Positions 30,851 through 60,955 of a DNA stretch of 64,000 nucleotides are shown here, piece by piece. The DNA is from Nitratidesulfovibrio sp. SRB-5 (GTDB taxonomy: Bacteria > Desulfobacterota > Desulfovibrionia > Desulfovibrionales > Desulfovibrionaceae). Where the stretch lies: contig NZ_JAIOTY010000002.1 in NCBI RefSeq assembly GCF_019931275.1, forward strand, positions 310,001-374,000, written 5' to 3'. Both the position numbers and the translations under genes were made by a program. The notes below the pieces were generated by a model. The model saw nothing but the letters and a program-made list of their open reading frames with translations. It was not told the origin of the DNA and made no database searches. Each line of letters starts with the position of its first letter. The first letter of the stretch is position 1.

Positions 30851-31918
30851 TTAGTTGTGAGTCACCAAGTGAGTAGCCGCCAAGCATGGCTCACTTGGTG
30901 ACTCACTTTTTGTTCTGTCGAACACCCCGTCCAGGGATGCCTGCACGCCGCGCAACGAGGTGAGGTAGCGCGATGTGGTCAGGGCGCTCCGATGGCGCAG
31001 GATGGCTTGGATCACCGAGAGCGGCACCCCGGCCCCGTCGAGCATCGACGCGCTCAGGTGCCTGATTGCGTGGAAGCCGAAGCGGCGCACTCCAGCCTTG
31101 TCGCACAGCGAGTACATGAGGTGCGTTGCGGATACCCAAGGGGTTCCCCGGCTGCTGACGAAGACATGCTCGCGGAAGCCCATTTGCAGGCGGTGGCGCA
31201 AGAGGCAGTCGTGCAGGGCCTGGGTCATGGGTATCCAGTCCTCTTCAAGCCCGCCGCCCTTGCGTTTCCGCGTCCAGAGCCGGAGACGGCGGTTGGCGAA
31301 GTCGAGGTCGTTCCGCTGCATGCGGAACAACTCTTCCTTGCGGGCCGCCGTGTGCAGCGCCGTGAACAGCATGGCGCGTTTATCCGGTGACTTCGCCGCG
31401 TCGTGGACCTTCCAGAAGTCCTCGGGTGTCGGGACGTATTTCGGGCGTTTGTCTTCCCTGTACCGCTCCACGCGCCACGGGCATGGCTCGGGCAGCTTGA
31501 AGGCGCGCACGCCCCACGAATAGGCCGCGAGGATGTTCTTGCGCCGCCGGTTGGCCTGCGCGCCGCTGATGCGCCGGGCAATGCCGTCCAGGTGCGCCTC
31601 GATCAGGGCGTAGGTCACGCGCTGGACAGGCAGGGACGGCTTTACGTCGGCCAGCAGTTCACGAAACGCCTGCCTCTTCTCCCCGTATGTCTTGTCCGCC
31701 ATGCCGCGCGCCTGCACGTGATCCAGGTACGCCGTGAAGAGCGCCGCCAAGGAGACCGTGCCGGTCACCGTATCGGGCTGTGTCACCTTCACGCTCTCTT
31801 CCCACGCCACGGCCTCCCGCCATGTGGTGCAACGATGCTCCCGGTGCTTCCCGCTCGGAAGCTTCACCCTCCCATAGATCACCGGTTTTCCGTGCCGGTC
31901 TTTCCTCGTTATTGGCAT
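30851..31918 (-). CDS. int: Tyrosine recombinase (phage integrase)
   Basis: The start MPITRKDRHGKPVIYGRVKL follows GGAGGAATG and gives 355 residues; the frame extends to 32011 without an RBS. An Arm/SAM-like N-terminal DNA-binding part (about 45-140) precedes the catalytic domain, with Arg in HTAARKEELFRMQ, H-x-x-R in FHAIRHLSASML, HRSALTTSRY and the nucleophile Tyr of SRYL. It catalyses integration/excision at tRNA-Val. The last 15 or so codons lie inside a long hairpin that also looks like a terminator for the tRNA. Confidence 0.95.
   Translation of the reverse strand: MPITRKDRHGKPVIYGRVKLPSGKHREHRCTTWREAVAWEESVKVTQPDTVTGTVSLAALFTAYLDHVQARGMADKTYGEKRQAFRELLADVKPSLPVQRVTYALIEAHLDGIARRISGAQANRRRKNILAAYSWGVRAFKLPEPCPWRVERYREDKRPKYVPTPEDFWKVHDAAKSPDKRAMLFTALHTAARKEELFRMQRNDLDFANRRLRLWTRKRKGGGLEEDWIPMTQALHDCLLRHRLQMGFREHVFVSSRGTPWVSATHLMYSLCDKAGVRRFGFHAIRHLSASMLDGAGVPLSVIQAILRHRSALTTSRYLTSLRGVQASLDGVFDRTKSESPSEPCLAATHLVTHN
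30857..30911 (+). terminator. Hairpin with T-tract at the tRNA/integrase junction
   Basis: A 17-bp perfect inverted repeat (GTGAGTCACCAAGTGAG, mirrored at 30890-30906) around a 16-nt loop, followed by TTTTT on the plus strand, 16 bp past the tRNA CCA. It can end tRNA transcription and lies wholly within the integrase 3' coding end. Confidence 0.7.
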
Positions 31919-32141
31919 CATTCCTCCATTGAAGGGCGCGTTCGACGTTGGCCGAATAGAACAGCCAGGCGCGCCCGCGTTTGATGCCGCCAAGTTCCTT
32001 GGCGTGGGCATACAGACGTTTCACCGTCCAGCCAAGAGACGCGGCGAGGTCTTCGGGGGAGATGAGGGGGCCGAGAGCCGGGAGGGGCGCGCACAGCCGA
32101 GTAGATGGCTGCGGTGTGTTGCTTCCGGTTGTGGGGTGCAT
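31659..32141 (-). CDS. Helix-turn-helix protein (excisionase-like), overlapping the integrase start
   Basis: A 160-residue frame with a strong RBS (AAGGAGGTCCAGGAC). Residues about 27-72 (ISPEDLAASLGWTVKRLYAHAKELGG, then RAWLFYSANVERAL) form an AlpA/MerR-like winged HTH, as expected for an excisionase next to an integrase. The remaining 85 residues are charged, read the integrase 5' region in another frame, and look non-conserved. The overlap with int is 260 bp, unusually long. Confidence 0.6.
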   Translation of the reverse strand: MHPTTGSNTPQPSTRLCAPLPALGPLISPEDLAASLGWTVKRLYAHAKELGGIKRGRAWLFYSANVERALQWRNDANNEERPARKTGDLWEGEASEREAPGASLHHMAGGRGVGREREGDTARYGDRHGLLGGALHGVPGSRAGARHGGQDIRGEEAGVS

Positions 32142-34773: not shown

Positions 34774-35823
34774 CTAGAACCCCGAGGGCATGTCGCCCAT
34801 CTGCTGGTTGGCATCGGGCGGGATGTTGAGCAGCGCACCGGACTTGATGCCGTCGATCATCTGCGTGGTTTCGGGCTTGGTGAGTTGGTCGATGCTCTGG
34901 ATCGAGTCGTCGCCGGTCATGTGGCGCGCGAGGGAGACGAGTCCTGCTTCATCAAGCCCGGCTTTCTTGCCCTCGTTGCGCAGCATGGCGAGTTGCGCGG
35001 CAGAGGGGGCCGGGGGCTGGTCCGGGTTGTGGGCGGGCTGCTGGTTGCCCTGCTGCGGCGTGGTGGTCTTCTTGCCCGTGCCCTGGGGCTTCTGCTGCTG
35101 CGAGGAGGTGGCGGCACCGGCACCGGGAATGACCTCGGGCATGTCCTCGATGTCTTGCGTGAAGATGTCGGAGGCGGCAGTGGAGGTGAGAACCGCGTCC
35201 ACGAGGGCGCGCTTCTTCGCCATCTTGAGCACGGTGTTGTAGTAGTCGGCGGGGTTGTCGTGCTCGACGCGCTCGCCGTGGGTGCTGACCATCCAGCGGC
35301 CCTCAGCGTCCTTCTTGGTGCCGAACTTGGAGCCGGGCAGCCCAGCCTTGTTGGCGATCTCGCGCAGGATGCGGGCTGCGGCGGTGGGGTCGCTGCGGCG
35401 GGTGTCCCAGTAGTTCTTGGGCACGGGGACGGAGGTGATCTCGCCATCACCGGCGCGGTAGCGGTACTTGCCCTCCATGGTGGAGCACAGGCCCACGCCA
35501 GCGCCGACCATGACGCCGGTAAGGATGGACACGAGCCGGACCATGACCCGGTACTCGCGGTGCCCGCCGGGCATCTCGCGCTCCTGAATGTCGTATTCGG
35601 GCGCGAGCCGGAACGTCATGGCCAGCTTCTCGGCCCCGGCCTTGAGCAGGGTGGGCTTGTCGCCGCAGCCGGGGATTTTCCCGAAGTGTTCGCCGTCCTT
35701 CATGACGGCGTGCATCACCTGCTGGATGTGCCCCACCTGCGCCACAAGGTCGGTCACCGGCATGTAGTTGGCCGGAGCCGGGGCGTGAGGCGAGATGGGC
35801 GCAAGAGTCTGTGCCTGGTTCAT
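34774..35823 (-). CDS. Phage protein, possibly single-strand-annealing / recombination-related
   Basis: A 349-residue protein, with GGGAGGACAGC before the ATG. The conserved core (MKDGEHFGKIPGCGDKPTLL, then KLAMTFRLAPEYD) and the segment LKMAKKRALVDAVLTSTAAS recall the AKKRALVDAVLTAT motif of Rad52-like annealing proteins. The C-terminal 120 residues are Gln/Pro-rich and then helical. Position next to DUF1351 fits a phage recombination module. The Rad52-like link is an inference from a short motif; a structure comparison is needed to decide. Confidence 0.6.
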   Translation of the reverse strand: MNQAQTLAPISPHAPAPANYMPVTDLVAQVGHIQQVMHAVMKDGEHFGKIPGCGDKPTLLKAGAEKLAMTFRLAPEYDIQEREMPGGHREYRVMVRLVSILTGVMVGAGVGLCSTMEGKYRYRAGDGEITSVPVPKNYWDTRRSDPTAAARILREIANKAGLPGSKFGTKKDAEGRWMVSTHGERVEHDNPADYYNTVLKMAKKRALVDAVLTSTAASDIFTQDIEDMPEVIPGAGAATSSQQQKPQGTGKKTTTPQQGNQQPAHNPDQPPAPSAAQLAMLRNEGKKAGLDEAGLVSLARHMTGDDSIQSIDQLTKPETTQMIDGIKSGALLNIPPDANQQMGDMPSGF

Positions 35824-36319: not shown

Positions 36320-36698
36320 GTTCCCTCCGGCTACTCTCCGGATCGTTGCTCCGTGGGATGGCGGGATGCCCGGCTGCGTTGCCTTCCATCCCGCCGGTAG
36401 TCACCGGCCACCGCTGGGCTGCTGTCCGTCACCCGGCCAAGGGGTTGCGCGGCGGTGCAGCAGGTTTCCCGTGAGTGCTTGGCCCCGGCTCTATCCCAGG
36501 GAACAACGATCCATGTCCGTTGATGCCGCCCGCCTTCATGGCCTTCGGTCCCGGCTCCCTACTGATCCGCGCTACCTGCATGCCTTCGCGCGTTGTTCGG
36601 GCCTCGCTACTGACCGGCGGGACCACCGTCCTCGGCTCCTTCCGTTCGCTCTGCCGGGATGGCGCTGCTCGCGGGGTGTTCCTCGATGGTGATGAGGT

Positions 36699-36727
36699 AT
36701 TTTGTTCTCATGAAGAAACAAAGTCAA
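36699..36727 (-). promoter_or_regulatory. PL-like early promoter
   Basis: On the minus strand TTGACT (36727-36722), a 17-nt spacer and CAAAAT (36704-36699) match sigma-70 -35/-10 at 5/6 and 4/6. An operator half-site lies in the spacer/-10, so repressor binding would block it. It reads into the leftward early operon. Confidence 0.6.
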
Positions 36728-36769
36728 CGCAAACTCTTGTTTCTCGCAAAGACAGGAGAGATGAGAACA
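36703..36769. promoter_or_regulatory. Left operator region (OL)
   Basis: Contains TGTTCTC-ATGA-AGAAACA (36703-36720), TGTTTCTC (36738-36745) and GAGAACA (36763-36769). The 13-mer AAGAAACAAAGTC (36713-36725) recurs exactly at 40128-40140 beside the repressor gene. These are the expected repressor sites flanking the immunity region. Confidence 0.6.
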
Positions 36770-36849
36770 AGAAGTCGTTTCGATAACTACATGATATAAA
36801 AGCTATTTATTTGGATGAAGAATGAGGCCGAAACTTGTATACTGAAAAC

Positions 36850-37719
36850 ATGGCGAAGACAAATAGCTTGTTGAGATACCCTGGGGGGAAATCGGTTCTA
36901 ACGAACACGATTGCCAATATTTTTCAAATGAATGATATGGTTGGAGGCGTGTACGTAGAACCGTACGCAGGCGGCGCCGGTATCGCGATGAATCTTCTGC
37001 TCAGTGGGGTTGCAGGAAAAGTCATAATCAATGATGCAGATCCGGCAATATCCGCTTTCTGGCGGTTTTTAGTAGAAGACCCGTATGAGTTTGCATTGAG
37101 AATAGATTCGACTCCTATATCTGTGCAAGAATGGCATAGGCAAAAGGAGGTTTTTTCCTGTCCCGGTGGTTACAGCGATAGAGAAATAGGGTTCGCAACA
37201 TTTTATTTGAATAGATGTAATCGGTCAGGAATTCTTGGTGCGAATCCTGTAGGCGGTATTAATCAGACAGGGAAATACCTAATAGATGCTCGTTTTCCAA
37301 AAAAACGATTGATCGCGCTTCTGGAAAAAATCGCGCCGCTTGTTGATAAAATTGAAGTGCATCAAAAGGATGCATTGGATTTAATATCAGCAATAAGCAA
37401 TAGCTATGGCGATGCGCATTTACTTTTTTTGGATCCCCCTTACTTTTTAAAAGGGGCAACTCTTTATATGAATTATTACAAAGAAGATGATCATGCAGTT
37501 ATCGCAAGGAAAATGAAAAGCCTTTCAGAGAATGTTAAATGGGTTGTTACTTATGATGATGTAGGTAGGATAAGGCAACTTTATGATGGTATGATCATTC
37601 GTAGTTTTACACTTCATTATCGGTCGCATGCTTCACGGAGAGGAGAAGAGATTTTCATCTCTCCTCCGTCTCTGAAGATTCCGGAAGAAATTATAACATC
37701 GTACAAATACGAGGTTTAA
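36850..37719 (+). CDS. D12-class DNA adenine N6-methyltransferase
   Basis: A 289-residue methylase, started at MAKTNSLLRYPGGK. It has the D12/Dam signatures: YPGGK (10-14), VEPYAGGAGIA (36-46, SAM-binding) and the catalytic DPPY (195-198). It methylates adenine in a short site, possibly GATC as in Dam; specificity cannot be read here. The gene is AT-rich against its GC-rich surroundings. It is transcribed rightward from the OL side and its TAA overlaps the stop of the convergent ATPase-nuclease gene. Start has no clear RBS. Confidence 0.88.
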   Translation: MAKTNSLLRYPGGKSVLTNTIANIFQMNDMVGGVYVEPYAGGAGIAMNLLLSGVAGKVIINDADPAISAFWRFLVEDPYEFALRIDSTPISVQEWHRQKEVFSCPGGYSDREIGFATFYLNRCNRSGILGANPVGGINQTGKYLIDARFPKKRLIALLEKIAPLVDKIEVHQKDALDLISAISNSYGDAHLLFLDPPYFLKGATLYMNYYKEDDHAVIARKMKSLSENVKWVVTYDDVGRIRQLYDGMIIRSFTLHYRSHASRRGEEIFISPPSLKIPEEIITSYKYEV

Positions 37720-39383
37720 AGTATGGCTCTGGCTGCGATCGTGTGTATCTGCTTCTCAGCAGCACTGATTGCTTTGATCAAGTTCTTTTCAAAGTCTAGG
37801 CACAGAGCGGAATTGTCCTTCTTCCATATGTCGAATGCCTTGTCGGCGAGAGCCTGTATTGTTTGATCTTTGTAGAAATTTTTAAAGGTGCTGCGTATGA
37901 TGCCACCTTCCGCCTTAATGCCTGGCAGCATTTGAGAAAGGTTTATTGGGGCCTCTGAATTGATGTTGAGCAGCTGGCGAATCTCTCTCGCGATTCTATA
38001 AAAAACATCTTTGGTTATTCTGAGTTCATTTTCCCATATTGCATGGTCTCTGCTGAAATTTGAAAGCAATTCAAAGAGCAGTTGATCGGGGGGGATGGCT
38101 CCAGGGAGTTTTACGGCTGTGGGGATCTTTGGGACGGATTTAACATCTTGGTCGAAGCATATTATGCTATTTTTGGAAAACTCTTCTATTTTTTCTTTAA
38201 TGAGATTTTTGTAGTTTTCACAGCCGAGATTTGCTTTTGATATCTTGAGGCGCCGTTTGATTTTACTTCCAACGATTCTTTTAAAGAAATGTTTGGCTTC
38301 ACCATCCTCAAAGTAGATATTTATTTTGGGGATTGCGAGGCCAAGGCGCAGGGGCTCAACCTTGAGATCTGCGAGTATCTCTGCCCACGAGTAGTTTTCG
38401 TGGATCTCCATTTTTTCGCGATGGCTTGATATATATACTACGCTGTAATCGCTTTTTGATTTATCACTAAGCCACTTGACGCGTTCTATGAGTGTTGGAG
38501 AATGCGAAGTTATGATGATCTGTAGGTCGCATTCTTTTGAAAATCTTGTAAGTAAGTTGATAAGCTCTATTTGGGCGGCAGGGAAAAGCGCGGCATCCGC
38601 TTCGTCAATAAGAAGAATTCCGCCGTGGTAATTTTTATAAGTTTCTTTGAGTATTTTGAATGAATAGAGCGATTGTATTATTTGTCCAGCGTTGTCATCG
38701 CCAACCGATACGGACTCGTGATCATAGTGGCTAGCGTGTCCAACTATGGAAGGGAGTGTTCCCTCTGTTGCTGTGAGTTCGCAGCAGTTGCTTTTTAATA
38801 GAAGTCTGTTGAGGTCAGAAAGCATTTTGCCTTGAAGGGAGGAGATGGCATCACGGGTTATTGGTGTGTATTTATCTCTTTCTGATATGGGGAGCAGTCT
38901 TTTTATGCTGAGGTATATCAAAGGGTGCGTTACGTTTCTGCTGGCATTATCCGTGTATTTTGTGCTGTTGTTTCGAAGGACGGGGCGCGGAAATGTTCTG
39001 TCTTTTGAACCTACGAGAGTGAGTTTGAGGTCAGTTAACTTTGTATCTTCAGCGCCATCATATATTTTGATGGCGACGTCCATATCTTTTGCTTTATCAA
39101 AAGTCTTTGAAAATCTGAAGTGTTCACTAAACTTGGATTCGAATTGTGCGCCGGAAATGGTTCGATAGTCTTTAAGTGACGAGTCCGGGGGGTGTTGTGT
39201 GTAGTCAGTTCTAAAGCTGAAAGTTTGGGCTATTAAACCTAGAATTGTCGACTTTGAAGTTCCATTTTTTCCGCAGATCACTGTTATTCTGTCGGCAAAT
39301 TTGACGTTAACGTCGATTAGACCTCGAAACTTTTGAATGTTTATTTCGTGAATTTTTGTGATTTTGTTTTTCATGTCTGCCAT
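37716..39383 (-). CDS. OLD-family-like ATPase with TOPRIM nuclease domain
   Basis: A 555-residue protein. The SMC/ABC-like ATPase has Walker A GKNGTSKST (38-46, Ser replacing the second Gly), Walker B ILLIDE (256-261) and H-loop TSHSP (292-296). The C-terminal part has TOPRIM-type acidic residues in YFEDGEAKHFF (Glu359) and CFDQD (Asp411, Asp413), then LPG (427-429), the pattern of OLD-type nucleases. P2 Old and related two-domain proteins exclude other phages. The start is 24 bp after the repressor stop, with GGAG before it, so it is co-transcribed with the repressor in the lysogen. AT-rich. Confidence 0.82.
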   Translation of the reverse strand: MADMKNKITKIHEINIQKFRGLIDVNVKFADRITVICGKNGTSKSTILGLIAQTFSFRTDYTQHPPDSSLKDYRTISGAQFESKFSEHFRFSKTFDKAKDMDVAIKIYDGAEDTKLTDLKLTLVGSKDRTFPRPVLRNNSTKYTDNASRNVTHPLIYLSIKRLLPISERDKYTPITRDAISSLQGKMLSDLNRLLLKSNCCELTATEGTLPSIVGHASHYDHESVSVGDDNAGQIIQSLYSFKILKETYKNYHGGILLIDEADAALFPAAQIELINLLTRFSKECDLQIIITSHSPTLIERVKWLSDKSKSDYSVVYISSHREKMEIHENYSWAEILADLKVEPLRLGLAIPKINIYFEDGEAKHFFKRIVGSKIKRRLKISKANLGCENYKNLIKEKIEEFSKNSIICFDQDVKSVPKIPTAVKLPGAIPPDQLLFELLSNFSRDHAIWENELRITKDVFYRIAREIRQLLNINSEAPINLSQMLPGIKAEGGIIRSTFKNFYKDQTIQALADKAFDIWKKDNSALCLDFEKNLIKAISAAEKQIHTIAARAIL

Positions 39384-39407
39384 TATTGAGCTCCGTGTCT
39401 GTGGTTT

Positions 39408-40094
39408 TTATACCTTTTGAAGAACCCAAATGACTTTTCCTATTATTATTCCTTCAAGATCTTCGCATGATATGTACTGGTCGGGCCATCGGGGGTTGTC
39501 AGAACGCAAAATGATGCCATTGCTTTCCCCTTGAAAGACTCTTTTTACGACAAGCCCAAAAGGTGGCCTGTTTACCAGATAGATATGTCCCTCTTCAAGT
39601 TGTCCATGAGCAGGGATGACACCGACACACGAGTCTTTGTGTATAGTGGGCTCCATGCTGTCACCGTTTACTTGGACTGCGCGCATGTTAGGGTGAAAGT
39701 AACTAGGTAAAATCTGTAGCATACGCTCAGGTTCGCTAAGGAAAAAATCAATTTCATGCCCTGCCCCTGCATGCGCGACAACCGGAATAGAGGGAAGTCC
39801 TTCAGCGTGCGGTATGGTTTCTTCCGGGGCATTTGGGGCGACACGCTTTATCGTAGGCGGCGGAAGGAAATCTTGTGCGCTATAGCCGAGTGCTTCAAGG
39901 TAGCGAAGCATGTTGGGAAAAGGAGCATTTGCTGCTTCTCGATTTTTATTTAGCCACTCGCCGATAAGGGCGCGATTCTTAACGCCCAAGATGCGCGCGA
40001 TCTCGTCAAGCGTCTTCCCCTCCCTTTTCAGGGCTTGGACACCCGCGAGAACTGCTTGCCAAGCGTCTTGTGCGACTTTGTTCCACTTATCCAT
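39408..40094 (-). CDS. Phage repressor, S24/LexA-like (CI)
   Basis: A 228-residue repressor from MDKWNKVAQD. The HTH lies at about 27-50 (KTLDEIARILGVKNRALIGEWL). The self-cleaving protease has Ser146 in GDSMEPT and Lys184 in LVVKRVF, with a candidate Ala109-Gly110 cleavage bond in VAHAGAGHE. It should hold lysogeny and be inactivated via RecA/SOS. A TTG-started extension to 40136 would run through an operator repeat, so it is rejected. No strong RBS precedes the ATG. Confidence 0.92.
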   Translation of the reverse strand: MDKWNKVAQDAWQAVLAGVQALKREGKTLDEIARILGVKNRALIGEWLNKNREAANAPFPNMLRYLEALGYSAQDFLPPPTIKRVAPNAPEETIPHAEGLPSIPVVAHAGAGHEIDFFLSEPERMLQILPSYFHPNMRAVQVNGDSMEPTIHKDSCVGVIPAHGQLEEGHIYLVNRPPFGLVVKRVFQGESNGIILRSDNPRWPDQYISCEDLEGIIIGKVIWVLQKV

Positions 40095-40127
40095 TTTTTT
40101 TAGGTAGCTGGTGGGAGTGTTTTCAGC

Positions 40128-40176
40128 AAGAAACAAAGTCGTTGTTTATTGATGTATTTGTTCTCTTGTGAGAACA
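40128..40176. promoter_or_regulatory. Right operator region (OR) between repressor and cro-like gene
   Basis: The perfect dyad TGTTCTC-TTGT-GAGAACA (40159-40176) and AAGAAACAAAGTC (40128-40140), shared with OL, lie in the 88-bp divergent gap. The dyad abuts the RBS of the cro-like gene. Promoter boxes here are not clear. Confidence 0.65.
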
Positions 40177-40182
40177 TGAGGT

Positions 40183-40401
40183 ATGGAAAATGTTCTTGAG
40201 CAATTTCGAAAAAATCACGGGCTTTCATACGGGGCACTAGCCCTAGCCGCAGGCGTGTCTTCCCGTGGATCGGTGTACTGTCATTGCCAGGGGCGGCGCC
40301 GAATCTCAGCAGAGATGGCTATCCGTTACTCCGTTCGTCTTTCCATTCCGTTGTATTTAATTCGTCCAGACCTTTGGCCCCCACCCCGCGACGCGGCCTG
40401 A
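40183..40401 (+). CDS. Cro-like HTH protein
   Basis: A 72-residue protein, first of the rightward genes, with a helix-turn-helix at about 12-45 (GLSYGALALAAGVSSRGSVYCHCQG). Small size and divergence from the repressor across OR make it the Cro counterpart that commits to lytic growth. The RBS GAGG is only 1-2 nt from the ATG. Confidence 0.7.
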   Translation: MENVLEQFRKNHGLSYGALALAAGVSSRGSVYCHCQGRRRISAEMAIRYSVRLSIPLYLIRPDLWPPPRDAA

Positions 40402-46520: not shown

Positions 46521-46727
46521 ATGGCGAGGCCGAGGAACGTGGTGCCCTGTCCCCTGTGCGGGGCGGCGTTGCGCTTGCTGCGCACGTCGGTGGCCGGGCC
46601 GGATGACCGGGACTCAGACTACCTGTGCGAGGTGTGCGGGTTCACGGGGCGGCGGAGGGAGTTGATCCAGGGGGATTGGATCAGGTGTACGCCGCCGGTG
46701 GCGGCAGAGGCGTCTGCCGAGAGTTAG
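46521..46727 (+). CDS. Small zinc-ribbon phage protein
   Basis: A 68-residue protein with CPLCG and CEVCG knuckles, GGAGGAAGTGCTG before the ATG. Resembles Ogr/Delta-like or generic zinc-ribbon regulators. Function unknown. Confidence 0.6.
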   Translation: MARPRNVVPCPLCGAALRLLRTSVAGPDDRDSDYLCEVCGFTGRRRELIQGDWIRCTPPVAAEASAES

Positions 46728-46815
46728 CCAGCCAACGTCGGTTAGGACCGATGTTCTATGCGCGTTGCAACGTCTCCGGCTGACTGATAACGCTTTGGCG
46801 AAAAGGAGGCTTGCC

Positions 46816-47412
46816 GTGAAGGTAGTTGGGAGTCGCGCGTTGTTGTTGGTCGTCATGTTATGGTTCGCCGTGCCAGCTATGGCCGGTCCGTTTGGGACGA
46901 ATATGGGCGACAGGCTGGAGAAATTTCCGGGTGCTGTTGCTAGTGGGGATACTCCATTTTGGTACAGCATGACAAATGTGCCCAAGCCGCACTCATTATT
47001 TGAAAGCTACCTTGCAGGAGTGCATCCGGAAATTGGGCTTGCCGTTATTGTAGGTCTTTCGCACACTTTTCGTAATGACAGGTTTGGATCATCTGTGCGG
47101 ACTTCTTTTGATTCTCTAAAGAAACAACTTGATTCAATCTATGGAGAAGGGAAACTCTTAGATGTGCTGCGCTATGGTTCTATATGGAAAGAGCCTAATG
47201 AATGGGTTGCTTCCATAAGTCATAACGAGCGAACATATGCATGCTATTGGACAAAGTCTGGAAAAGCTAGACTAAAAGATAATATCGATGGAATTATGCT
47301 TTCCGTCAAAGCGCAATCTGGAGATTCAGCATATATTGTGTTGCGATATGAATATGAAAATATGAATAGATTTCAAACTCTTTATGAACAGTCTGAAAAG
47401 GACTCGTTGTGA
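46816..47412 (+). CDS. Secreted cargo protein of unknown function
   Basis: The GTG start follows AAGGAGGCTTGCC and gives 198 residues with a clear signal peptide (VKVVGSRALLLVVMLWFAV, cleavage after PAMA). The mature protein is exported to the periplasm. The gene becomes strongly AT-rich after the signal peptide. Not recognised. It lies 9 bp before a membrane protein gene, giving a two-gene envelope cargo unit next to the lysis genes. Confidence 0.75.
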   Translation: MKVVGSRALLLVVMLWFAVPAMAGPFGTNMGDRLEKFPGAVASGDTPFWYSMTNVPKPHSLFESYLAGVHPEIGLAVIVGLSHTFRNDRFGSSVRTSFDSLKKQLDSIYGEGKLLDVLRYGSIWKEPNEWVASISHNERTYACYWTKSGKARLKDNIDGIMLSVKAQSGDSAYIVLRYEYENMNRFQTLYEQSEKDSL

Positions 47413-47421
47413 GGTTAAGGT

Positions 47422-48024
47422 ATGAAAAAATATATTATATGCGTAATTTTGCTTCTGTTTGGCGTAGCAATATCTGCGGTGTTCTTTATATCGACAGAAA
47501 ACAAAATTTCATCACAAGAAATACAGAGCGACATCGACGCGTTGAATAAGGAAATTGCGGGTAGAAAAGCAGAGTCGAGCAGGTATGGCGGAGCATTAAA
47601 GGTAATTCTCGATGCGCAAATTCTCATTCACGAAAACACATTGGCCGCGTTGATGGCTAAGAAAGCAAGTCTCATTCACCGAGTGCAATTGGTATATCCA
47701 TCTTCAAGGCTGAAACCAACAGGTGGAGCAGCTGGTGATAAGGAGAGCTACATTGCAGTTCTGGAAAAAGAGATGGTAAAAATGCGCGGAGCCATCTCCG
47801 CTGATGAACAAGAGTTGAGTTTATATTCCGGTGGATTAATTCAGGTCGTCATCCTTATGCGTAAGGCGCAACATCAAGTGACACTGGCAGCTCTTGAACA
47901 TCGATTGATGGCAGCGAAGTACGACTTCCCCGTCTTGTTGGCTCTAGATGGCGAGGGGGAACGGATTTCTCCGGATGGTTCACAGGTGGTATCTGATCCT
48001 GAAAAGGACAAGGGCGCGTTGTAG
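47422..48024 (+). CDS. Membrane-anchored coiled-coil cargo protein
   Basis: A 200-residue protein with one N-terminal membrane helix (YIICVILLLFGVAISAVFFI). The periplasmic part is helical, with two similar halves: DIDALNKEIAGRKAESSRYGG and MVKMRGAISADEQELSLYSGG, each followed by hydrophobic helix and LAAL. This suggests an internal duplication. AT-rich. Not recognised; a superinfection-exclusion role is only a guess. Confidence 0.75.
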   Translation: MKKYIICVILLLFGVAISAVFFISTENKISSQEIQSDIDALNKEIAGRKAESSRYGGALKVILDAQILIHENTLAALMAKKASLIHRVQLVYPSSRLKPTGGAAGDKESYIAVLEKEMVKMRGAISADEQELSLYSGGLIQVVILMRKAQHQVTLAALEHRLMAAKYDFPVLLALDGEGERISPDGSQVVSDPEKDKGAL

Positions 48025-48114
48025 GCACTCTTGCATTCAGCCCAAGAGGCAACGCTAGCCAGCTAGGGGGGCGACCTCGAATCCTTCTGCTGGGGCGAAG
48101 CTCTGCAAACGACT

Positions 48115-48141
48115 AGGCCCCCGGTGAACCGGGGGCCTTTT
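48115..48141 (+). terminator. Intrinsic terminator after the cargo pair
   Basis: AGGCCCCCGG-TGAA-CCGGGGGCCT followed by TTTT. It insulates the two cargo genes from the lysis cassette. Confidence 0.85.
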
Positions 48142-48254
48142 GCGTGTGTCGAGTCCTCCGACTTCATGCGTAGAAACCCCCGGTTTCTACACCAGCCTTC
48201 CTTGATCCCCTCCCGCCCCCCCGCGCTACGCTTCTCCCAAACAGGAGCGCAGCC

Positions 48255-58835: not shown

Positions 58836-59804
58836 CTACTGAAATTTTTCTAAAGGAAACTCTTCGTCGTTTTCAAATCCCATCACTTTTAAATTGCAAT
58901 TTGGGAGGCGTGGCATCGTTTTGAAATTATCTGCAACACAAGTTATCCATTGGGAATTTACACCTATTTTACGAACGAGAAACCAGGTTATAGCGATTAT
59001 TCCTAGTGCTCTTGTAAGAGCTTTATCTCCTAGGGATAGTGTTTTGAAATAGTCATCAGCAGGAGTAAGTAGCGGGCTGTGTGTGGATTGATTCCATATT
59101 CTGGTGTGGTGCGCGCATCTATTTCTTATGGTGTTCAGTTCTCTTAGCCAGTTATTGAGAATGTTTGGTCGTAACGAAGGGTCTATTCTTTGGCATATTC
59201 TATTTTGATACCGAGCTAGAAGCATTGAAAAATATTTAGACATTATTCCAAAATCCCAAGCCTCTATAGCTACCCATATTGGGATGGCTTTCCCAGATTC
59301 TTTATGCCAAATTATGTGGTCTTCTCTGCATCTTTCTATATTGTCTTGATGCTTGGATTTCCAATTGTTCCATGCCGTATTGCGTAGGAATTTTTGATTA
59401 ATAAAAGTGTGATCATCATATGCAGTAGGGCTATGATACCCCATTTCGTGGGCGATTACAGATCGAAGGTGTATTTCTATGCGTTCAATCGCATCAAGCA
59501 TGAGTAAGCGAAGCCGTTTGTCGAATAAATAAAGACAGAAAACCTTATTAAAGGTAGTCCCCGGCAAAAATTCTTCTGATCTCTTCATAACCTTTGAGCC
59601 GGGCATTGAAGGAATGAATTTTCCGTCAGGGCCTTTCTCGAAGGCGCGACATGGATGCCAAAAACCGCTCAAGCGATAATAACCGACTTGGGCGATCTTT
59701 CGCTCAGCGCGGGCACGGTCCTCAATGAGCATTCCACGTGACTCAATGAGGTCGACTAGTTCTGGGTACGTTTTGAACGGCTTGGGCGGGGAGAGTGGGG
59801 GCAT
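58836..59804 (-). CDS. Abi_2 family abortive-infection protein (AbiD/F-like)
   Basis: From MPPLSPPKPFKTYPELVDLI the protein has 322 residues. KTYPELVDLIESRGMLIEDRARAERKIAQVGYYRLSGFW is the Abi_2 N-terminal signature. A HEPN-like R-x4-H motif appears in NTIRNRCAHHTRIWN, suggesting RNase activity as in other Abi/HEPN toxins. AT-rich, with its own promoter, so it is probably expressed in the lysogen. It lies reversed inside the tail operon. Confidence 0.9.
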   Translation of the reverse strand: MPPLSPPKPFKTYPELVDLIESRGMLIEDRARAERKIAQVGYYRLSGFWHPCRAFEKGPDGKFIPSMPGSKVMKRSEEFLPGTTFNKVFCLYLFDKRLRLLMLDAIERIEIHLRSVIAHEMGYHSPTAYDDHTFINQKFLRNTAWNNWKSKHQDNIERCREDHIIWHKESGKAIPIWVAIEAWDFGIMSKYFSMLLARYQNRICQRIDPSLRPNILNNWLRELNTIRNRCAHHTRIWNQSTHSPLLTPADDYFKTLSLGDKALTRALGIIAITWFLVRKIGVNSQWITCVADNFKTMPRLPNCNLKVMGFENDEEFPLEKFQ

Positions 59805-59871
59805 AAAAATAAGAGGGCCCGCTCTTGAAGAAGAACAAGTCTTCCACAGAGGAACGGGCACGATTGGAGTG

Positions 59872-59900
59872 TATTTATTCTCGAAAGTATTGCCTGTCAA
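59872..59900 (-). promoter_or_regulatory. Promoter of the Abi_2 gene
   Basis: On the minus strand TTGACA (59900-59895), a 17-nt spacer and TAAATA (59877-59872). It leads to a start about 60 nt before the Abi ATG. The apparent TTG start of a longer frame is this -35 box, so the extension is not coding. Confidence 0.6.
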
Positions 59901-60070: not shown

Positions 60071-60955
60071 CTACCGAATCGCCGCCAACCCCTCCATGAG
60101 GCGGGCGGTGAGGTAGAGGTTGTCGGCTCCGACCTCCATGGCGTGGACGCCACGCGAGGCAAAGGTTGTGAGCGAATCGTGGACACGCTCACGGACCTGA
60201 TAGCCGGGTATGGAGGTGGCGAACCGGGGTTCAAGGACGCTGTACACCTCGCGGGCCAACAGGCTTCCTTCGGTGTTCAGCATGCGTGCCCTGGAGCAGG
60301 TTTCGCCCATGAAGTCGAGGCAGGCGTGGGTATGCGCCCTGAGCCGGGCACGCAGATCGTCGGGGACGGCGGGCAGGGCCGGGGCTGCGGCAGGCAGCAC
60401 GACGGGTGCCGCCTGTATGGCGTCGATGCGGGCCTGCACCCACCCGATGGCGCGCTGGACCGTCTCCGGGGTCATTTCCTCGACCGAGGAAACGCCCATG
60501 GCCGCGTTGACCAGCCGGAACGCAGCGCCATAGCCGAGCGGGGCCATGCTGACCCACATGCGCACAAGGTCCACGAGCGGACGGCGGTCGGCCTTGGTGG
60601 CAAGGCGTGGGGCGACGGGCTGACGGGCCTCGGCCTCGCCGAGGGTTTCGAGCACGTCGAGAACCCATGCGCGGAACGCCTTGGCCACCGGGGTGCGGGC
60701 GAACATGGCGAGGAGGTGGCAACCGCGCAGGGAGAAAATGCGGGTCTCCTGCGGACCGCCCGGCGTGGGCAGGGTGACCATCGCCGTCATGGAGTCGGTG
60801 AACTCGTCGGCGTGTTGGCGGTACAGCTTGGCCACTGATAGGTCTGGATTCTTGTAGTCCATGGCCAAACCGATTTGGTTTGACCTTAACCACGGCTGAC
60901 CGTTTAGGTCGATGACATCAAATCGGTGGGACTGGAAGACGAGGGAAGTAGACAT
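60071..60955 (-). CDS. BRO-N domain phage antirepressor
   Basis: A 294-residue protein, AGGAGGCCCAC before the ATG. The BRO-N domain (about 1-105) reads FDVIDLNGQPWLRSNQIGLAMDY and SLRGCHLLAMFARTPVAKAFRAWVLDVLE. The helical C-terminal part (RARMLNTEGSLLAREVY) is of unknown role. Such proteins counter repressors; here it could act on the prophage's own CI or on another phage's. Confidence 0.88.
   Translation of the reverse strand: MSTSLVFQSHRFDVIDLNGQPWLRSNQIGLAMDYKNPDLSVAKLYRQHADEFTDSMTAMVTLPTPGGPQETRIFSLRGCHLLAMFARTPVAKAFRAWVLDVLETLGEAEARQPVAPRLATKADRRPLVDLVRMWVSMAPLGYGAAFRLVNAAMGVSSVEEMTPETVQRAIGWVQARIDAIQAAPVVLPAAAPALPAVPDDLRARLRAHTHACLDFMGETCSRARMLNTEGSLLAREVYSVLEPRFATSIPGYQVRERVHDSLTTFASRGVHAMEVGADNLYLTARLMEGLAAIR

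Follow-up and report, generated by a model that had tools for sequence, protein, structure and literature searches.

Described relatives of the methylase and the ATPase

The prophage-borne PD-λ-5 system, consisting of a D12 methylase and an effector, was discovered in a selection for activity against phages, had an effect on nine of ten phages and is termed by its authors a compacted 'RM+Abi' system (Vassallo et al. 2022, PMC9519451). A methylase of the same family is encoded by a prophage of Nitratidesulfovibrio sp. SRB-5, within the 64-kb stretch of DNA analyzed here (the window), where its gene converges with that of an OLD-type ATPase lying behind a CI-like repressor gene. In sequence, the pair looks like an undescribed relative of this tested anti-phage system. 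We read it, with a probability of roughly 0.55, as a prophage-borne, methylation-gated anti-phage module that would restrict DNA by its missing mark. The features on which this reading turns are the following:

36850-37719, forward strand: D12-class N6-adenine DNA methyltransferase of the PD-Lambda-5_B type (Pfam, PADLOC, motifs)
37716-39383, reverse strand: OLD-type ABC ATPase with a TOPRIM-like C-terminal domain, phrog_3940 family, 555 amino acids (PHROG, Pfam, structure model, hhalign)
38049-38324, reverse strand: TOPRIM-like core of the ATPase, residues 354-445, with E359 and D360 after strand 1 and D411-x-D413 after strand 3
39408-40136, reverse strand: S24-type CI-like repressor, first gene of a presumed operon (Peptidase_S24, 1.2e-16; phrog_4 transcriptional repressor, 1.7e-29)

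The methylase matched Pfam MethyltransfD12 (9.3e-18) and, over residues 6-286, the PADLOC model of PD-Lambda-5_B (PDLC04018, 6.5e-100, 332 bits), an identity absent from an earlier note on this DNA. Its kinship with PD-λ-5 lends support, by analogy, to the suggestion made in that note that the methylase marks self DNA. RYPGGK-type and DPPY motifs were present in 107/107 non-redundant methylases. Generic Dam identity was rejected, TIGR00571 scoring 52 bits vs. a cut-off of 115. It is known that Mrr cuts methylated DNA. PD-λ-5 was assayed in a host deleted for a region containing mrr (PMC9519451), a hint that its methylase was perhaps active. The effector of that system, PD-Lambda-5_A (ParB/Srx-like; hereafter A), is unlike the ATPase and resembles ParB weakly in some members, with scores below the curated cut-offs. 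The A profile found no match in the window between 30 and 46 kb, and the PADLOC hits listed for three proteins of the window included no A model (for the ATPase, the best 25 of 133 were listed). A single A model found no match in the own genome, nor in its control genomes. Because A is absent and an OLD-type ATPase is found instead, the window pair is, by these profiles, not a member of PD-λ-5.

The ATPase shares with OLD classes 1 (P2 Old), 2 (Gabija GajA) and 3 (retron I-B) an N-terminal OLD/AAA_15 ATPase domain followed by a TOPRIM-like part, but its C-terminal part did not align with the OLD TOPRIM profiles and its partner is a DNA methylase. The three classes have, respectively, no partner, a UvrD-like helicase or a retron reverse transcriptase, whereas the window ATPase is flanked by the repressor and the methylase, and its relatives by the methylase. 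PARIS also has an AAA_15 ATPase, and the C-terminal model of the window protein aligned with AriB at Z of about 5. Separate AriA and AriB genes are, however, absent from the window, where one fused gene of 555 codons fills the space between the repressor and the methylase. The proteins of λ rexAB and RexABpp are, to our knowledge, unrelated to the window pair. The likeness lies in their being defence cargo behind a CI-type repressor (PMC12894663). In WonAB/PD-T4-4, WonAB is a two-gene OLD-ABC system of prophages placed behind a regulator gene; it differs in that WonB is a PD-(D/E)xK nuclease, and the word 'methyltransferase' is absent from the main text of the report (PMC12137116).

Searched against the known defence families, as proposed earlier, the methylase was assigned to PD-Lambda-5_B, and PADLOC-DB 2023 contained no good match to the ATPase. 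Gabija, PtuA and AriA proper were rejected as identities of the latter, the best PADLOC score being 69 bits vs. 461 bits for phrog_3940. The first part of the PADLOC model PDC-M38A (PDLC04607) matched PD-Lambda-5_A proteins (from L167 and L171) and its positions 382-692 matched the ATPase of Citrobacter phage phiNP (1.3e-12). Unlike the window pair, it is a single 715-position model, suggestive of a natural fusion with an A-like start and a phiNP-ATPase-like end. For the window ATPase, the PADLOC hits listed included only a shorter PDC-M38A model (1.1e-14). Searches of one open-access literature library found no description of a system in which a D12 methylase partners an OLD ATPase.

Pairing with the methylase and exchange of effectors

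With five aligned ATPases as the query, we retrieved the best 78 of 110 viral loci and the best 80 of 158 genome loci. Together with four other seeds and the window they make up 163 ATPase loci, in which the window and the viral contig L007 represent one prophage. Many of the loci are near copies, and 90 ATPases and 107 methylases were left under 80% identity. The methylase profile detected a D12 methylase in 151 of the 163 loci, at a distance of up to 1 kb in 137 and of 1.2-3.9 kb in 14. Among the 12 loci without it, nine have fewer than 800 bases downstream of the ATPase. On this count chance neighbourhood was rejected, and the co-occurrence elsewhere, raised as a question in the earlier note, was found to span several phyla; by these profile searches the pairing is near-obligate. 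The distances between the ATPases and those between the methylases were correlated (Mantel r of 0.75 for the 60 non-redundant loci lacking A, 0.45 for the 23 carrying A and 0.64 for all 83; 0/2000 permutations each), and by this measure the two proteins diverge together. Used as a DNA query, the phiNP pair found matches in 85 of 5426 complete E. coli genomes; in all of them 80% or more of the pair was covered, and both genes were annotated in each of the 12 matches listed. In the GenBank records of phage phiNP (L002:7820-8703) and Pseudomonas phage OQ658368 (L166:3956-4828) the methylase is unannotated.

Within 1 kb, the methylase gene mostly lay on the same strand as that of the ATPase (114 downstream and 17 upstream). 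The convergent layout was rarer, being found in six loci with the window's prophage counted twice. It is nevertheless not unique: Vibrio phage ValB1MD-2 shows the same arrangement, with an annotated repressor of its own, the ATPase and a convergent methylase, though a split PD-Lambda-5_A adjoins the set.

The methylase also has other partners. The A profile placed PD-Lambda-5_A beside both the methylase and the ATPase in 34 of the ATPase loci retrieved, with many Bacteroidota among them. In a survey that started from the methylase, 49 of 87 loci scored above the threshold for it; the 87 included seven retrieved by hit choice and at least three that duplicate earlier contigs. Of the 49, 27 had A only, 15 the ATPase only, one both and six neither. 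The partner classes were then placed on a quick tree of the 107 methylases, in which the window methylase sits on a long branch and its place is unsure. The minimum number of partner changes was 28, in comparison to a shuffled mean of 42.9 (0/200 shuffles as low), hence partners are clustered on the tree, although they have switched repeatedly. Starred branches alone force seven (ATPase), nine (both) and eight (A) changes, and the A-only label was hardly clustered (12/500 shuffles as low). The same methylase lineage was also seen beside open reading frames (ORFs) of 459-491 amino acids in L169:4881-8443 and L140:7593-12252, an apparent third kind of partner. The likeness of these proteins was judged by eye, and the L169 locus has P-loop and HerA-like genes as well.

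These counts bear on the idea that the two genes are independent cargo sharing a slot, the methylase shielding phage DNA against restriction by the host or tuning gene expression and the ATPase excluding other phages by itself. P2 Old is such a single-gene exclusion function (PMC10568477), and methylases without the ATPase are common in the survey (27/49 with A only, 6/49 with neither). However, 27 of these 33 loci carry another effector, and the pairing in 151/163 loci across several phyla, together with the co-divergence, makes independent cargo very unlikely.

That the methylase is constant and the effector varies agrees with a self-mark which different effectors recognize. In the restriction reading, the D12 methylase would modify a specific adenine site in the DNA of host and prophage alike. 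The lysogen would express the OLD-type ATPase, TOPRIM-like domain included, as part of the repressor operon. Incoming unmarked DNA would trigger the ATPase, which might then cut this DNA or halt the infected cell. The methylase would thus provide an unvarying self-mark, around which effectors could be swapped. If the methylase had its own promoter, apart from the one serving the repressor and the ATPase, DNA could be marked before the effector is made. The reading draws on the pairing, co-divergence, partner exchange, cargo position and conserved active-site residues that are observed in the sequences. Gene decay in 161 loci is in line with it: the methylase was intact beside a broken ATPase in four loci and the reverse was seen in none away from a contig edge (both genes were broken in two loci and the methylase was absent in three).

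Besides the sequence and Foldseek results on TOPRIM given below, three observations count against this reading. The asymmetry of broken genes is just four vs. none, and the frameshifts may be sequencing errors. Three full-length ATPases (L064, L138 and L153) have no D12 methylase despite enough flanking DNA. A predicted-site scan listed no promoter-like site before the methylase start, placed at 36835 or, likelier, at the ATG at 36850. Promoter-like and terminator-like sites were near the shuffle level (9 vs. 6.1 and 5 vs. 3.7, respectively) and were left unused. A TATACT hexamer within 36838-36850 ends six bases 5' of this ATG, and a leaderless transcript is possible. In L153 (3159-10653) the ATPase relative lies among type I restriction-modification-like genes, which may include another methylase partner; it is flanked by genes resembling hsdM/hsdS and hsdR in sequence.

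Extended to the whole lineage, the self-mark suggests a modular defence class, which we put forward as a tentative view, somewhat short of even odds. One D12 methylase lineage would write the mark and interchangeable effectors would read its absence, a form of plug-in restriction housed in prophage immunity slots. On the same tentative footing, the effectors plugged in would be PD-Lambda-5_A, the OLD ATPase with a divergent TOPRIM, both of them, or others as in L169.

The ATPase and its C-terminal part

The ATPase matched phrog_3940 over its full length (1.4e-137, 461 bits, residues 8-544) and Pfam AAA_15 (3.6e-17). Its structure model had a predicted local distance difference test score (pLDDT) of 93.6 and a predicted template-modelling score (pTM) of 0.75; for the C-terminal part alone the values were 93.0 and 0.88. 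In hhalign, 79 relatives of the ATPase aligned with eight OLD proteins over residues 9-304 at 98.7% (E of 2.1e-16), and the N-terminal part is, by this profile comparison, OLD-type, as predicted earlier. A Foldseek search returned GajA at ranks 1-2 and OLD (6p74) at rank 8 with low template-modelling scores of about 0.3, and the VIA-align matches of the whole model covered roughly residues 1-345 only. The Walker A lysine, the Walker B DE, H294 and S226/G228 were invariant in 90/90 non-redundant relatives. The Walker A variant, previously taken as the mark of a particular OLD subgroup, proved to be family-wide, with T42 in 87 of the 90.

The C-terminal part is probably a TOPRIM domain, judging from its conserved residues and its model. 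E359, D360, D411 and D413 were likewise invariant in 90/90 non-redundant relatives, and in the model an E follows strand 1 and a DxD follows strand 3. This is the order of acids in TOPRIM domains, E and then DxD. VIA-align superposed the C-terminal part on OLD and AriB chains with Z of 5.0-5.5 over 149-164 residues (AriB chains alone: 149-154 residues, Z of 5.1-5.4).

Several results argue against a TOPRIM assignment. Receiver domains reached Z of up to 7.4, if only over about 100 residues. Foldseek with the C-terminal part gave nothing below 1e-3. Pfam OLD-like_TOPRIM_1 matched one of 55 C-terminal halves (0.0087). The hhalign comparison with OLD TOPRIMs gave 0.1%, vs. 0.5% and 1.0% for the methylase and the A protein used as unrelated controls. 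This last comparison is a weak test, as the OLD set was small (n = 8). It comprised three P2-like proteins and five of the ten PF20469 matches, those passing a motif filter; PF20469 was used because P2 Old gave only eight close relatives in viral contigs and ten in phage records. A PDB profile search of the C-terminal part retrieved nothing relevant, and PF24395 was found in none of 99 genomes, where the controls were silent too. Among the 25 of 40 Pfam families listed for the 55 C-terminal halves, each matched four members at most, and the best E of 6e-4, to a ribosomal family, was taken as chance. The earlier TOPRIM claim is backed by the invariant E...DxD acids and the strand order, whereas the sequence-profile and Foldseek searches gave no significant match.

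In a rival reading, the ATPase would work like AriA and AriB of PARIS joined in a single chain and would act by abortive infection. A phage event, e.g., an anti-restriction protein blocking the methylase, would trigger the TOPRIM-like part to cleave tRNA or another host target, and the methylase would be a guarded decoy or an antidote instead of a restriction marker. The top-ranking PADLOC matches of the ATPase include AriA (2e-17), and the AriB alignment given above agrees with this. PARIS, however, has two genes, and we know of no methylase in it. The term 'RM+Abi' used for PD-λ-5 (PMC9519451) and the abortive mode reported for WonAB (PMC12137116) point the same way as AriA. The partner exchange is explained equally well by a shared self-mark, and we regard abortive infection as rather unlikely and as the second choice after restriction by the missing mark.

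The immunity slot of the prophage

The element around the pair is a prophage with an integrase gene (30851-32011) and genes for the large terminase, the portal and the head protease; the same prophage is present in IMG/VR as the 41.7-kb contig L007. Besides the genes given above, its immunity region comprises:

40183-40401, forward strand: Cro-like small helix-turn-helix protein, divergent from the repressor (HTH_3, 1.4e-3; HTH_31, 9.9e-4; phrog_35, 1.1e-4)
36702-36770, no strand: left operator-like cluster with inverted arms and TTGTTCTC half-sites
40118-40176, no strand: right operator-like cluster with a half-site and a perfect palindrome (dyad) at 40160-40175
36696-40378, no strand: immunity block swapped among sibling prophages, delimited by break points of DNA similarity

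Both Pfam scores of the Cro-like protein fall short of the cut-off, and phrog_35 is a transcriptional repressor family. The ORFs of the methylase and the ATPase share 4 bp at their 3' ends. The GC content is 0.41-0.45 in the 1-kb bins from 37 to 40 kb and 0.57-0.75 in the other bins of the window, except those at 47-48 and 59-60 kb (0.42-0.43). ORFs, Pfam and GC bins thus confirmed the layout described in the earlier note, with the ATPase 24 bp behind the repressor and an AT-rich D12 methylase convergent with it. The 24-bp gap and the shared strand suggest that the ATPase may be co-expressed with the repressor in the lysogen. Elsewhere, a same-strand ORF was found in range upstream of the ATPase in 46 of 61 loci without A. 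When 24 of these 46 ORFs, mostly from viral contigs picked by eye and with the window included, were searched against PHROG, nine had matches to phrog_4 repressors and two to an integrase.

The slot was compared with those of sibling prophages, starting from the left-flank gene at 34774-35823. Among 59 genomes searched, the own one included, this gene was 97% identical in two of the same genus (G003 and G004) and had weaker matches in two further genomes. In both same-genus prophages sharing it at 97% (2/2) the block 36696-40378 is replaced: DNA similarity stops at 36695 and resumes at 40379/40381. The left matches were of 95.8% over 4033 bp and 96.9% over 2320 bp, followed by a 77-bp piece at 92-95%; the longest right matches in range of the block were of 93.2% over 1418 bp and 97.0% over 2431 bp. 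The similarity is patchy, with 36330-36618 unmatched in both siblings and further gaps to the right, and a third, more distant region (G022) gave short DNA matches only. In the 58 other genomes the ATPase had three partial matches only (24-31% identity, E of 8.7e-6 to 3.9e-4), taken for generic ATPases.

Both siblings (L268 and L269) carry another repressor, whose first 90 residues differ between them at one place. Behind it, L269 has IetA (9.9e-79) and IetS (4.4e-56), oriented like the repressor, and L268 has a 391-amino-acid ORF without a defence match and a 111-amino-acid ORF with a weak candidate match (PDC-S14, 0.0015). Hence, the cargo changes even under nearly the same repressor, in line with what the Rex analogy drawn earlier had predicted. 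With IetAS in the same slot of a sibling, the view of the ATPase-methylase pair as Rex-position cargo of the immunity block is supported.

The half-site TTGTTCTC occurs four times in the window, three times at the cassette edges (36702, 36763 and 40158); 0.94 copies are expected in the whole window, and four were reached in 1/100 shuffles. GTTCTC-N4-GAGAAC was found once in perfect form, as the 16-bp dyad at 40160-40175, and matches with up to three mismatches were at the chance level (20 vs. 17.5 expected). The left cluster has perfect 10-nt inverted arms (36702-36711/36761-36770) and 8-nt arms (36714-36721/36737-36744). For the two operator regions proposed earlier, half-sites are observed at both cassette edges and the dyad at the right one; binding of the S24 repressor there, which would make both clusters its operators, is what we infer from them.

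The position of the pair inside the immunity block, adjoining both clusters, would also suit a role in lysogeny control, in which the cargo modulates the repressor switch as reported for RexA, with operator methylation as the signal. The settings of the relatives make this very unlikely. In E. coli, the single copy inspected has an integrase gene on either side and a LexA-family gene roughly 5 kb away, and the phiNP copy follows a DUF3596 gene, presumably integrase-like. Many Bacteroidota have three-gene forms, and the sibling slot holds IetAS.

The prophage has further variable DNA. A second variable slot (46612-48210) holds an AT-rich 200-amino-acid ORF without matches (47422-48024), and the sibling's counterpart (L268:13797-14778) holds a NYN protein of the HEC-09 type (7.1e-44). 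In the late region, an AT-rich AbiD/Abi_2 gene at 58836-59900 on the reverse strand (PADLOC AbiD, 7.8e-51; Pfam Abi_2, 1.9e-47) is a possible second defence cargo. An anti-repressor Ant-like gene (60071-60955, reverse strand; phrog_5060, 3e-38) adjoins it.

If the restriction reading is true, the repressor-proximal slot would emerge, in one group of prophages, as a hotspot for defence genes, with either an OLD-methylase pair or IetAS in the siblings. The pair would represent a fairly common and, as far as searched, apparently unnamed module joining the PD-λ-5 methylase to OLD-type effectors. The recurrent exchange of effectors around one methylase lineage would then offer a clean test of methylation as a shared self/non-self signal.

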